From positions 1 through 27,890 of IMG/VR virus record IMGVR_UViG_3300042938_001485: a stretch of 27,890 nt of DNA. One strand, 5' to 3'. This document shows positions 4,130 to 9,675 of this stretch, one piece after another. Numbering within the stretch: position 1 is the stretch's first letter; every line of letters starts with the position of its first letter. The notes under the pieces are model-generated. The model ran no database searches. It saw only the letters and a program-made list of their open reading frames with translations, and was not told the DNA's origin. A program made the position numbers and the translations under genes. Source of the stretch: a virus.

Positions 4130-4747
4130 ATGAAAAACGAAATTGAAAAAACACAAAAAACGTCGGCGCTTGCTATCATGGCCGACAAATACTCGGTCGA
4201 TCCAGACAAACTCCTGGCGACATTAAAAAACACCGTCTTCAAAGGCGCGACCAACGAGGAGTTGCTCAGCCTGGTGGTGGTCGCCAACGAGTACGGCCTC
4301 AACCCATTGTTGAAAGAACTCTACGCTTTTCCAAACAAGGGCGGTGGCATTGTGCCGGTGGTGTCGGTGGATGGTTGGATCCGGATGTGCAACGACCATC
4401 CGCACATGGACGGCATTCAGTTTGTCGAGTCATTCGACGAGGGCAAGCTGGTCAGTGTGACCTGCACGATCCACCGCAAGGACCGCGCTCATCCTACCTC
4501 GGTCACCGAGTACCTCGCCGAGTGCAAACGCGCCACCGACCCATGGAAGATGGAGACGCGGATGCTACGGCACAAGGCGCTCATCCAGTGCGCTCGTGTG
4601 GCATTTGGATTCTCGGGGATTCACGACGACGACGAGGCTCGGACTATTTCTGGCATGCGCGATGTAACACCGAGCGCACCGGCCGCAGTGGTGTCTTTCG
4701 CTCTGCCAAAAAACTCACAGGAAATCCTAAACGGAGCAACAGTATGA
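4130..4747 (+). CDS. bet: Bet/RecT-superfamily single-strand annealing protein
   Basis: This 205-residue protein resembles phage Bet recombinases, which anneal complementary DNA strands during recombination with a partner exonuclease. Typical features are LATLKNTVFKGATNEELLSL, YGLNPLLKELYAFPNKGGGIVPVVSVDGWIRM and the C-terminal METRMLRHKALIQCARVAFGFS, which match the helical start, core and end of the Bet family. The next gene, overlapping by ATGA, is a YqaJ exonuclease, the standard partner. Start ATG at 4130 follows an A/T-rich leader with no Shine-Dalgarno sequence. These proteins commonly drive phage mosaicism, which is relevant to the repeat array downstream. Confidence 0.92.
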   Translation: MKNEIEKTQKTSALAIMADKYSVDPDKLLATLKNTVFKGATNEELLSLVVVANEYGLNPLLKELYAFPNKGGGIVPVVSVDGWIRMCNDHPHMDGIQFVESFDEGKLVSVTCTIHRKDRAHPTSVTEYLAECKRATDPWKMETRMLRHKALIQCARVAFGFSGIHDDDEARTISGMRDVTPSAPAAVVSFALPKNSQEILNGATV

Positions 4748-5373
4748 AATACCCAGAATGCACATTGGTAGACTGCGACCAACGCAGCGATGAATGGTTT
4801 GAAGCACGACGCGGCCACCTAACCGCGAGCGGCATGGGTGCCTGGTTGACCAAGAGCGACAAGACTAGCCACAAGGCGCGCATCACGGCGACGAGCCAGG
4901 TGCTGGCGGAGATTGCTGGTTATCCAGACCCCAAGGTTTTTGTGACACCCGACATACAACGCGGCATCGAGCAGGAGCCGGAGGCCATCGAAGAGTTTTC
5001 CAAATTGACTGGGCTACTCGTGGACGCGATCGGCTTTGCCAAGAGCAAGCACGGCCTGTTCGGGTGTTCGCCAGACGGTTTGATCTTAGAGACAGGCGAA
5101 GGACTCGAGATTAAATGTCCGAGGGCGAGCAAGCTATTGACCTACCACCAGATCGGCGGACTGCCAGATGAGTATAGGGACCAGGTACACGGGTCACTGG
5201 CGGTGACCGGCGCGATCGGGTGGCACTTCTATGCCTACCACCGTGGATTACCGAGCTTCCATGTCTATGTACAGCGGGACGAGTACACCAACCAGATGCT
5301 GGAGGGACTCAAGCAATTCGATGTATATCTGAAAGCAACGTCCGAAAAACTACAAGCACTTGCGGCATCATGA
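4744..5373 (+). CDS. exo: YqaJ / lambda Exo-type recombination exonuclease
   Basis: This 209-residue nuclease of the PD-(D/E)XK fold resects double-stranded DNA 5' to 3' and hands the strand to Bet. Visible catalytic parts are Glu78 (GIEQEPEAIEEF), Asp111 (FGCSPDGLI) and Glu122-x-Lys124 (LEIKCP), followed by the YRDQVHG motif typical of the family. The N-terminus (QRSDEWFEARRGHLTAS) is also diagnostic. Length is normal for the family. The start is fixed at 4744 by the ATGA overlap with the Bet stop. It overlaps the next small gene by ATGA at 5370. Confidence 0.93.
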   Translation: MKYPECTLVDCDQRSDEWFEARRGHLTASGMGAWLTKSDKTSHKARITATSQVLAEIAGYPDPKVFVTPDIQRGIEQEPEAIEEFSKLTGLLVDAIGFAKSKHGLFGCSPDGLILETGEGLEIKCPRASKLLTYHQIGGLPDEYRDQVHGSLAVTGAIGWHFYAYHRGLPSFHVYVQRDEYTNQMLEGLKQFDVYLKATSEKLQALAAS

Positions 5374-7204: not shown

Positions 7205-7837
7205 ATGAGTAAAAAACAAATAGAAGAAAACGTGCAGATTTCTGCACCCAAGATTGCAAGCATTGCATTTAACATCGTCGGAACAGCGCCATACATACAG
7301 TTGCGTTTTTCTGAAAAAGCTATCAATGCCATGCGTGAAAAACACGAAGCTGGTACATTGGCAAACAAGAAGAAGGCAAAAGCAGCGCGTGATTTCCACG
7401 AGGATTTTTTACAATCCCAGCACATGTCCGACGACGATGTGCCTTGGAATGGTATACCAGCAGCGGCATTTAGAAATGCAATGATCAGCGCGTGTCGCTT
7501 GGTTGGATTTAAAATGACACTGGCAAAGCTGAGTGTATTCATTCTGCCAGATGGGTTTGATAAAGTAGACGGTGTGCCGCTTATCAAAATAGAAGGCAAA
7601 CCCGAAAGCCACATCATGCATGCAAGAAATGCAACAGGTGTGTGTGATCTCCGTGTGCGCTCAAAATTCTGGCCGTGGAAGTCATCTATACATATCCAAT
7701 ATGACGCCGATCAATTTTCCGTTTCAGACATCGCCAACTTAATTACAAGAGTAGGAGTGCAAGTCGGAATCGGAGAAGGCAGGCCAGATAGTAAGGCTAG
7801 CGCAGGCATGGGCTGGGGTACGTTTCGTCTAGAATAA
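7205..7837 (+). CDS. Conserved-type phage early protein, possible RAMP-like fold
   Basis: The protein has 210 residues. It opens with APKIASIAFNIVGTAPYIQLRFSEKA, then a Lys/Ala-rich helix, then WNGIPAAAFRNAMISACRLV, and ends with GVQVGIGEGRPDSKASAGMG and WGTFRLE. I recognise this general layout (a 'VGxxPyI...fSEKA' start, 'iPaaaFk.A...Ac..v' core and Gly-rich 'vGiGegRP' end) as a widespread uncharacterised phage protein found near recombination and replication genes. The Gly-rich end loosely recalls RAMP/Cas7-like proteins, but that link is my inference. No Shine-Dalgarno site; the leader is AAAACAAATAAT. The GGCNN array follows it. Confidence 0.75.
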   Translation: MSKKQIEENVQISAPKIASIAFNIVGTAPYIQLRFSEKAINAMREKHEAGTLANKKKAKAARDFHEDFLQSQHMSDDDVPWNGIPAAAFRNAMISACRLVGFKMTLAKLSVFILPDGFDKVDGVPLIKIEGKPESHIMHARNATGVCDLRVRSKFWPWKSSIHIQYDADQFSVSDIANLITRVGVQVGIGEGRPDSKASAGMGWGTFRLE

Positions 7838-7904
7838 TACCAAACAGCCTATACATGCCAAAGCTAAGTCAAGCTCTGTTGAAGTCAGTCGTTAAACCTA
7901 CGCA

Positions 7905-8328
7905 GGCGTGGCGAGACGTGGTACGGTCCGGCTTTGCAAGGGAAGGCAAGGCAGGCATGGCGTGGCATGGCTTGGCTCGGCCGGGCGCGGCACGGCAGGC
8001 ATGGCAGGCATGGCATGGCACGGCGTGGCGCGGCGCGGCAGGGCGCGGCACGGCACGGCAGGCAAGGCTTGGCTCGGCCAGGCTTGGCTGGGCACGGCAG
8101 GCGTGGCACGGCAGGCGTGGCAGGGCATGGCGGGGCCCGGCCAGGCACGGCAGGCGAGGCGTGGCGTGGCATGGCTTGGCGAGGCATGGCAGGCGAGGCT
8201 TGGCACGGCGCGGCGCGGCAGGGCATGGCGAGGCATGGCAGGCATGGCGAGGCAAGGCGTGGCATGGCGAGGCACGGCAGGCACGGCCTGGCGAGGCAGG
8301 GCATGGCCTGGCACGGCAGGCAAGGCAT
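7905..8328 (+). repeat. Degenerate GGCNN pentanucleotide tandem array
   Basis: From 7945 to 8328 every base belongs to an uninterrupted run of units beginning GGC. I count 79 units: 68 pentamers GGCNN and 11 tetramers GGCA, adding exactly to 384 bp. The two N bases vary widely, but TA never occurs. Each tetramer follows a GGCAN unit, and GGCAC-GGCA recurs seven times. Upstream, 7905-7944 divides into eight decayed pentamers in the same register (for example GGCGT, GGCGA, GACGT, GGTAC). The region between genes (7838-8360) holds nothing else recognisable. All six frames are open only because TA is absent, so I call it non-coding. The G-rich top strand repeats GG every five bases. Confidence 0.93.
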
Positions 8329-8360
8329 AGCACAAACCGCGACTGGAGAGCGGGGTACAA

Positions 8361-8855
8361 ATGGCCAGAAAATTTACTCATATGAAAATACAAACAAAAA
8401 AAAGCAGTTCGGATTTGATCAAAAAAATATCCGATGAATTAGACGGCGAAATCACTGCTGACATATTGCTGGAACGGGCAAAGAACAGCAAGTCACAGCT
8501 ACATGCATTCTTTAACTGGGATGATACAGAGGCCGCATATTTATACCGAGTCATACAAGCCAAGGAGTTAATTAGACGATGCAAGGTCACTTATTTGAAT
8601 GAATACAACGAGGTCATTACTGTCAGAGCATATGTAAATGTGCGAGATGAAAATACAGCAGATGAAGATGATGTGGCAACGGATGACAGCAGAGGTAAGT
8701 ATGTAACATTTGCCAAGGCGTTAAATACTCCAACCTACAACGAGCAGATGATGCAGCAATGCACACGCGACATCGCAATCTTTCAAAACAAGTATTCCGC
8801 ATTCAACGCCGCCAAGAAGATCATTCAAACAATGCAAGATTTCCTTATACAATGA
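8361..8855 (+). CDS. Conserved-looking phage early protein, function unknown
   Basis: The protein has 164 residues from ATG at 8361, just after the repeat array; ATG at 8382 is an alternative start. The N-terminus is basic. ITADILLERAKNSKSQLHAFF followed by NWDDTEAAYLYRVIQAKELIRR is a pattern I associate with an uncharacterised phage family (LH-x-x-F-x-WDD, then a helix with R and QAxxLI). An acidic central loop (ENTADEDDVATDDS) and a helical C-terminus follow. It overlaps the next gene by ATGA. Role unknown; position before the initiator suggests replication or recombination. Confidence 0.75.
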   Translation: MARKFTHMKIQTKKSSSDLIKKISDELDGEITADILLERAKNSKSQLHAFFNWDDTEAAYLYRVIQAKELIRRCKVTYLNEYNEVITVRAYVNVRDENTADEDDVATDDSRGKYVTFAKALNTPTYNEQMMQQCTRDIAIFQNKYSAFNAAKKIIQTMQDFLIQ

Positions 8856-8988: not shown

Positions 8989-9675
8989 ATGGCCGGAGAC
9001 TGGATCAAATTTGAACACGCGACGATCGATAAGCCAGAGGTTTATCAGATCTCGGACATGCTCGAGATTGAACCGGAGGAGGTCATTGGAAGGCTTTTGA
9101 AGATCTGGGTATGGGCAGACCAACAAGTGTTTAAATGTGACGCTGTCAGCGTAACAGAAAAGACACTCGATCGTATCGCTGGTCGTAACGGTTTCGCAAC
9201 AGCAATGCGTACAGTCGGTTGGATTGAGGGTAAAAGTGGTTTTTTGACCTTTAGCAACTTCAGTAGGCACAACGGTCAGACCTCTAAGACTAGGTCACTT
9301 ACAGCGAAACGAATGAAAAAAAAGCGTGACGCTGACAGCGTAACACCATCGTCACCAGAGAAGAGAAGAGAAGAGAAGAATATAAAGAAGGAGTTTCCCA
9401 TTTCTCTCGACACGGATGCATTCAAAGCGGCGTGGAACAATTGGAAAGAATATCGAAAGCAGGCGAACCTCAAAGCGTGGTCGCCGATGACCGAGAACGC
9501 GCAGCTTAACAAGTTAAGCGCGATGGGAGCGGTGAATGCCGTGACGGCCATCGAGACGAGCATACGGATGGGCTGGCAAGGTGTGTTCGAGCAGAAGCCT
9601 GTGAAGAAGGACAGCTTCACCTCGGCGGATGTCGGACTAGGCAGAAACTTCACCTCAGCGGAGGTCGGGATATGA
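8989..9675 (+). CDS. Replication initiator / helicase-loader protein (lambda O / DnaD-like)
   Basis: The protein has 228 residues. Residues about 3-100 form a winged-helix initiator domain: DWIKFEHATIDKPEVYQISDM, EEVIGRLLKIWVWADQQ, VTEKTLDRIAGRNGF and FSNFSRHNGQTSKTRSLTAK. A basic linker follows, and residues about 143-200 (FKAAWNNWKEYRKQ, then NKLSAMGAVNAVTAIETSI and MGWQGVFEQKP) resemble the C-terminal helical part of DnaD-like loaders. DnaB lies directly downstream, overlapping by ATGA. The gene contains two 19-bp near-palindromes and a purine tract resembling an origin. Near its end two 22-bp copies encode FTSADVG and FTSAEVG. Confidence 0.85.
   Translation: MAGDWIKFEHATIDKPEVYQISDMLEIEPEEVIGRLLKIWVWADQQVFKCDAVSVTEKTLDRIAGRNGFATAMRTVGWIEGKSGFLTFSNFSRHNGQTSKTRSLTAKRMKKKRDADSVTPSSPEKRREEKNIKKEFPISLDTDAFKAAWNNWKEYRKQANLKAWSPMTENAQLNKLSAMGAVNAVTAIETSIRMGWQGVFEQKPVKKDSFTSADVGLGRNFTSAEVGI
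9137..9393. other. ori: Candidate replication origin inside the initiator gene
   Basis: GTGACGCTG-W-CAGCGTAAC occurs at 9137-9155 (W=T) and 9326-9344 (W=A). Each is a 19-bp pseudo-palindrome with perfect 13-bp core symmetry. Twelve bases after the second copy comes a purine-only stretch (9357-9380) of AAGAG units, then ATATAAAGAAGGAG. Iterons with dyad symmetry inside the initiator gene followed by an asymmetric A-rich tract is the layout of the lambda origin in gene O. Only two iterons are present and the 189-bp spacing is long, so this is a candidate. Confidence 0.5.

Follow-up and report, generated by a model that had tools for sequence, protein, structure and literature searches.

A GGCNN pentamer array beside a RAMP-like gene of a temperate tailed phage, very likely a VIPR guide-RNA locus

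The stretch of viral DNA analysed here (the window, 27,890 nucleotides, IMG/VR virus record IMGVR_UViG_3300042938_001485) contains a region, 7205-8855, that is very likely a VIPR locus of a temperate tailed phage, in which an array of GGCNN pentamers would represent guide RNAs. This reading is based on the agreement of protein homology, protein fold, linkage between gene and array, array form and the tail that follows the array. Our comparisons within the family also revealed covariation in the tail, hypervariability of the guide letters and a codon-phase signature. The locus can be considered a well-supported VIPR addition to a very recently described kind of system.

VIPR (Viral Interference Programmable Repeat), a recently proposed CRISPR ancestor with a gapped guide code, is described in one preprint only, from 2026 (PMC13142463). 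That preprint presents it as a phage RAMP protein accompanied by an accessory protein and by vrRNAs, which hold 9-16 YNNGG repeats with alternating GGY and NN motifs and end in a structured, pseudoknotted tail (PMC13142463). According to the same source, the NN dinucleotides are matched in the target DNA with one skipped base between them, often the wobble base, and no PAM is involved, while the complex acts as a transcription repressor with natural targets that include satellites and prophages. RNA binding, the one-base-skip rule and repression are presented there as demonstrated in SUSP1, and the arrays are said to differ in architecture, 'staggered arrays with overlapping vrRNAs' being one of several forms named (PMC13142463).

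Anatomy of the array and its tail

Dynamic-programming parsing of the array proper (Table 1) allows a single segmentation into 79 units with no odd base, in accordance with the pentamer and tetramer counts of the original prediction, and the same parse confirms that each GGCA tetramer directly follows GGCAN and that GGCAC-GGCA occurs seven times. The units in front of it, predicted to be mutated yet still in the 5-nt register, proved to be so, and the 5′ edge of the array could be placed at a CGCA tetramer. Imperfect units are frequent internally, too, in the arrays of relatives. Tandem Repeats Finder reported period 5 together with periods 39 and 44, the latter two due to higher-order modules, most of which comprise 7-10 pentamers and are delimited by [GC]GCA tetramers. 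As some members of the family, SUSP1 included, have mostly GGT instead of GGC, the constant element is GGY. The earlier view that such an organization is not simple slippage of one unit is upheld, and so is the selection on GG every five bases, formerly deduced from the fixed GGC and free NN. The GG spacing is best read as a guide-RNA scaffold to which the RAMP protein of the adjacent gene would bind, and the free NN as guide letters.

Within the window, 30 occurrences of the six-unit GGC pattern were counted on the + strand and none on the minus strand or in the backwards-read control, and among whole records of relatives it was present in 20 of 30, compared with 0 of 30 in the backwards-read control. 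An assembly artefact was rejected on account of the identical design in dozens of independent assemblies. The array proper uses 15 of the 16 possible NN dinucleotides, TA being the absent one. The claim that NN never reads TA therefore stands for this segment but not as a rule, since the family has TA in 50 of 1,872 internal NN, where 94 would be expected from base composition.

Table 1. Coordinates of the features in and around the putative VIPR locus
Feature	Position	Strand	Basis or remark
Integrase	1684-2808	minus	
vipr gene, 210-aa protein of predicted RAMP (Cas7/Csm3) fold	7205-7837	+	directly upstream of array
Array 5′ boundary tetramer CGCA	7901-7904	+	sequence; [GC]GCA likewise precedes the first unit in relatives
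Initial imperfect part of array, 8 in-register units with altered GGY letters	7905-7944	+	sequence
vrRNA array proper, 68 GGCNN + 11 GGCA	7945-8328	+	single possible parse
Putative guide module 1: AT GT AT TT TC CG GC AC	7954-7993	+	
Putative guide module 2: AT AT AC GT GC GC AG GC AC AC	8007-8056	+	
Putative guide module 3: AA TT TC CA TT TG AC	8061-8095	+	
Putative guide module 4: GT AG AT GG CC CA AC	8114-8148	+	
Putative guide module 5: GA GT GT AT TT GA AT	8153-8187	+	
Putative guide module 6: GA TT AC GC GC AG AT GA AT	8192-8236	+	
Putative guide module 7: AT GA AA GT AT GA AC	8241-8275	+	
Putative guide module 8: AC CT GA AG AT CT AC	8280-8314	+	
vrRNA 3′ tail, predicted H-type pseudoknot	8329-8368 (pseudoknot 8337-8368)	+	covariation in family
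Candidate vap (accessory) gene, phrog_15946	8361-8855	+	conserved beside vipr in relatives
Replication initiator gene	8989-9675		downstream of array

The feature was originally predicted to stop at 8328, but a structured tail continues to 8368. Its stem 1 pairs CCGC (8337-8340) with GCGG (8350-8353), and its stem 2 pairs CTGG of the hairpin loop (8343-8346) with CCAG (8365-8368), the linker containing TACAAAT. Past the last unit, the tails of relatives contain a hairpin whose loop is complementary to a strand located beyond a TATAAA-like linker, and the SUSP1 tail, by reading of its sequence, has the same layout as that of the window. Across the family, stem 1 is 100% paired, with one compensatory column, and stem 2 is built from 11 different complementary loop/downstream pairs. 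Mean helix length in 22 distinct tails was 4.45, compared with 3.76 when loops were swapped, and none of the 1000 swaps reached 4.45. The tail of the second array in L130, which has no loop-downstream helix, is an exception. Judging from the sequences of the family, the array ends in a pseudoknotted RNA tail maintained by covarying pairs.

The Vipr protein and its linkage to the arrays

In regard to the protein encoded at 7205-7837, the profile of its 62 relatives matched one PDB sequence, 36pp 'SUSP1 Vipr protein' (E=5.6e-12), and hhalign against the SUSP1 gene gave a probability of 97.9 and an E of 4e-13, with the G-loop inside the alignment. The G-loop conserved in the family, GIGEGRP...GMGWGTF, lies in a region that aligns with SUSP1 Vipr. 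For the AlphaFold2 model (pLDDT 92), all 48 Foldseek matches in the PDB at E<=1e-3 were chains of effector complexes belonging to CRISPR type III or VII, and comparison with Csm3-type subunits reached a VIA Z of 11.6; the PDB set used with Foldseek ends on 8 April 2026 and does not include 36pp, the match to 36pp being sequence-based. Pfam assigned no trustworthy family to this protein or to the product of 8361-8855. By profile and predicted structure, the protein is a Vipr homologue with a RAMP fold, only distantly similar to SUSP1 Vipr, and it has the organization expected of VIPR, a single small RAMP with an RRM core, thumb and G-loop.

Scanning of viral contigs with this protein yielded 69 loci with 44-83% identity. 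In most of these relatives GGCNN arrays are located directly downstream of vipr, on the same strand, many also have a second array past the next gene, and no opposite-strand arrays were found in the regions of the 69 relatives. The reverse search, based on the DNA pattern alone, gave 120 loci, 112 of them with hypervariable arrays, and the Vipr profile matched 78 of these 112 viral loci vs. 0 of 18 control loci. In array-bearing loci, array and vipr lie on the same strand in a ratio of 305:1, with a median distance of 297 b. In 34 loci (L009, L019, L044, L057, L068, L112 and others), hypervariable GGYNN arrays were present with no match to the Vipr profile in the stretch examined; these may hold more divergent Vipr proteins or be truncated.

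Relatives of Vipr are present in 27 Mycobacterium and 5 Gordonia phage records, and a single-protein scan of prokaryote genomes detected three loci, from MAGs or isolates, two of them with the same array type and tail. In the isolate phages Escherichia phage phiSUSP1 (L261, 3525-4057) and Mycobacterium phage Brocalys (L198, 2500-2950), the array is found beside a gene annotated only as hypothetical protein. The arrays adjoining vipr in most of the 69 relatives show that the array sits at a conserved gene junction, a point that the original prediction had proposed to check. The suggested tie to the Bet/Exo system and the initiator was not supported, and these genes seem to be mere neighbours, as the array stays with vipr while other neighbours differ, for example in Brocalys and in Cy-LDV1.

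The gene order in the window is integrase, RecT, YqaJ/RecE-type exonuclease, Holliday junction resolvase, SSB, vipr, array, the gene at 8361-8855, initiator and DnaB, with terminase, portal, head and tail genes located later. The listed RecT and exonuclease ORFs (4130-5373) have about 370 bases in common, read in different frames, and the exonuclease probably starts near 4750. Beside the integrase start, at 2731-2800, there are short tandem repeats (TTGCCACAA x2.7; GAGTGCTTTT x2.4), possibly arm-type integrase sites. The product of 8361-8855 (AF2 pLDDT 88) had no match under E=1 in the PDB fold search with its model and is unrelated to vap1 of SUSP1; as a vap candidate, it would belong to a different type. 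Given that the ATG at 8361 sits within the RNA tail and that several relatives have no ATG at that place, this gene probably starts at the in-frame ATG 8382. No cas1, cas2 or cas6 was detected among the window proteins scanned (Pfam or PHROGs, part of the ORFs), Rfam gave no match over the window, no tRNA was found in it, and blastn for related DNA among annotated phages returned a single match, Cy-LDV1.

Guide turnover, targets and competing explanations

In the modules of the family, the entropy of NN amounts to 3.5-3.9 of 4 bits at internal units and to 2.9 bits in the final one, where A followed by any base predominates. Comparison of unit order between relatives, put forward as a check with the original prediction, uncovered extensive turnover: among 110 phage pairs whose Vipr proteins have an identity of 97% or more, 93 have no module in common, 7 have all of them and the remaining pairs some. 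Because sharing may involve all, some or none of the modules, exchange apparently proceeds by cassettes, with the frame kept constant. In one relative (L151, 6627-7600), most of one module (GT AA GT TC TC AT GC ..) is common to the first and the second array of the phage, which suggests duplication or transfer between arrays.

When the NN frequencies of 249 modules were compared with the genes of relatives' loci, codon positions 1-2 gave the best fit of the six phases, with r=0.66 compared with at most 0.32 for the other five, and they were the best in 1000 of 1000 bootstraps. This value exceeds all 500 N2 shuffles, but the shuffles reach a mean of 0.55 from the marginals alone. Part of the correlation thus comes from base composition, and the codon-phase signal could to some degree reflect compositional limits on the array. 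A match to codon positions 1-2 is expected if one base is skipped and this base is the wobble base, and it is regarded here as support, not proof. At codon positions 1-2, TA stands for Tyr or stop and is rare; TA is probably scarce but not forbidden in the arrays because the guides copy these positions.

According to the model that we infer for this locus, transcription of the + strand would produce a precursor RNA with about ten guide modules (including eight regular and complete ones), mostly of 7-10 GGCNN repeats, bounded by [GC]GCA and with one pseudoknotted tail at the end, each module being a working guide. Vipr would oligomerise on the vrRNA, with GGC as the protein-bound scaffold in every unit, and the displayed NN letters would pair with DNA as xNN xNN xNN, if the one-skip reading also applies to the clade of the window. 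The complex would then bind and silence genes of competing phages. As a tentative extension, possible rather than probable, the RNA could be a multiplexed CRISPR-like precursor, in which [GC]GCA marks guide boundaries, as a processing site or as a register reset of the Vipr filament. One transcript with one tail would in that case serve about ten independent gapped guides, cassette-swapped between related phages without Cas1-like machinery.

Searches for natural targets of the guides of the window or its relatives revealed no convincing one, and exact matches in the viral collection were at chance level. Exact scans with six modules, three each from the window and from relatives, gave 12 and 13 matches for 16-base guides, 4 for a 17-base guide, and 1, 1 and 0 for 18-base guides, and a drop of about fourfold per added base is chance-like. 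The single 18-base match of module 2, antisense to a likely gene in a phage with 72% GC, was rejected, as about one is expected by chance. Searches in phage DNA covered 1.7-2.4 Mb with skips of 0-3, and against 2.4 Mb the real guides did not outperform shuffled guides. Reading pairs of modules through the intervening tetramer revealed no targets, and the two top rows came from loci that were themselves pattern-selected.

The lack of a phage target would be in line with a repurposed VIPR array, for example one regulating the phage's own or host genes and not rival phages. However, no self target was found, the best self match per module being similar to that of shuffled guides, and the fast turnover of modules suits conflict better than housekeeping regulation, making repurposing unlikely. 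Considerably less probable is a structural DNA element acting in replication or recombination through two-layer G-quadruplexes or R-loops, as originally proposed. Such an element would account for the 5-base spacing of GG along one strand, for the strong GC skew across the array and for its early-gene location, but it leaves unexplained the near-maximal NN variability and complete module turnover, the constant pyrimidine that follows GG, the RNA pseudoknot with its covarying pairs, and the RAMP protein accompanying the array in phages with quite different neighbour genes. From the earlier suggestion of a replication, recombination-hotspot or protein-binding role, the protein association gains support from the RAMP gene next door, while the replication and recombination roles do not.

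The location of the array upstream of the initiator gene could also evoke iterons, an array of DNA sites bound by the replication initiator or by some other protein of the phage. Iterons conserve the letters of their sites, whereas each unit of this array leaves two of its five bases free, and the same single-sequence search placed a relative of the initiator in 3 of 120 array loci vs. 33 of 120 for a relative of Vipr, so this explanation retains next to no likelihood. Just as negligible is a coding repeat, with a low-complexity protein in one of the six frames (e.g., ORF 7855-8385), since the openness of all six frames over the array already follows from GGCNN units without TA, as had been noted, the 4+5n-base modules shift frame freely between relatives, and the following tail is conserved as RNA structure.

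Comparison with known systems

The probable VIPR locus of the window and its relatives form an unusually rich comparative set, in which tetramers punctuate numerous guide modules, the tail covaries, and phages that are nearly identical have guides that differ completely. They make it possible to test how the individual working guides are delimited in a multi-guide array and how new ones originate in the absence of adaptation machinery. They also suggest that many GGYNN repeats found in phages can be interpreted as libraries of guides, which may name rival phages.

TIGR-Tas systems, as described (PMC12045711), resemble the locus in phage occurrence, guide-RNA arrays and DNA targeting. They differ in that Tas was found via the guide-RNA-interaction domain of Cas9, whereas the effector of the window is a RAMP; a Tas effector was rejected, the array-linked protein being a RAMP by sequence and predicted fold. 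CRISPR-Cas type III, with its Csm3/Cas7 backbone, shares the protein fold and the G-loop, and by analogy Vipr may work in a similar way, as a RAMP filament reading a guide with periodic unpaired positions. In contrast to type III, the window has one RAMP gene, a presumably gapped code, and no constant repeats with contiguous spacers. A CRISPR array was likewise rejected, as it would consist of constant direct repeats of about 25-40 nt and unique contiguous spacers, while the constant part here is 3 nt per unit plus the short tetramer.

The window resembles VIPR type II of SUSP1 (PMC13142463; PDB 36pp) in that a phage carries the RAMP gene, no other Cas gene was detected with it, GGY/NN vrRNA arrays occupy the intergenic DNA on its flank, and the 3′ tail is pseudoknotted, by prediction in the case of the window. 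A conserved neighbour of vipr in the window is a candidate for the accessory gene. The adjacent tandem pentamers with constant GGY and hypervariable NN that characterize VIPR are present, and so is the invariable structured 3′ tail (pseudoknotted in the SUSP1 clade), but with one tail per array and not per guide. Unlike SUSP1, with its mostly GGT units, the window has GGC, a neighbour gene unlike vap1 and a Vipr of distant similarity. Several modules follow each other there without a break, separated by [GC]GCA tetramers, and only one tail closes the whole array, whereas each SUSP1 vrRNA has its own tail. Among the published architectures, the staggered type with overlapping vrRNAs (PMC13142463, fig. 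S18), by its short description only, is the likeliest for the window.
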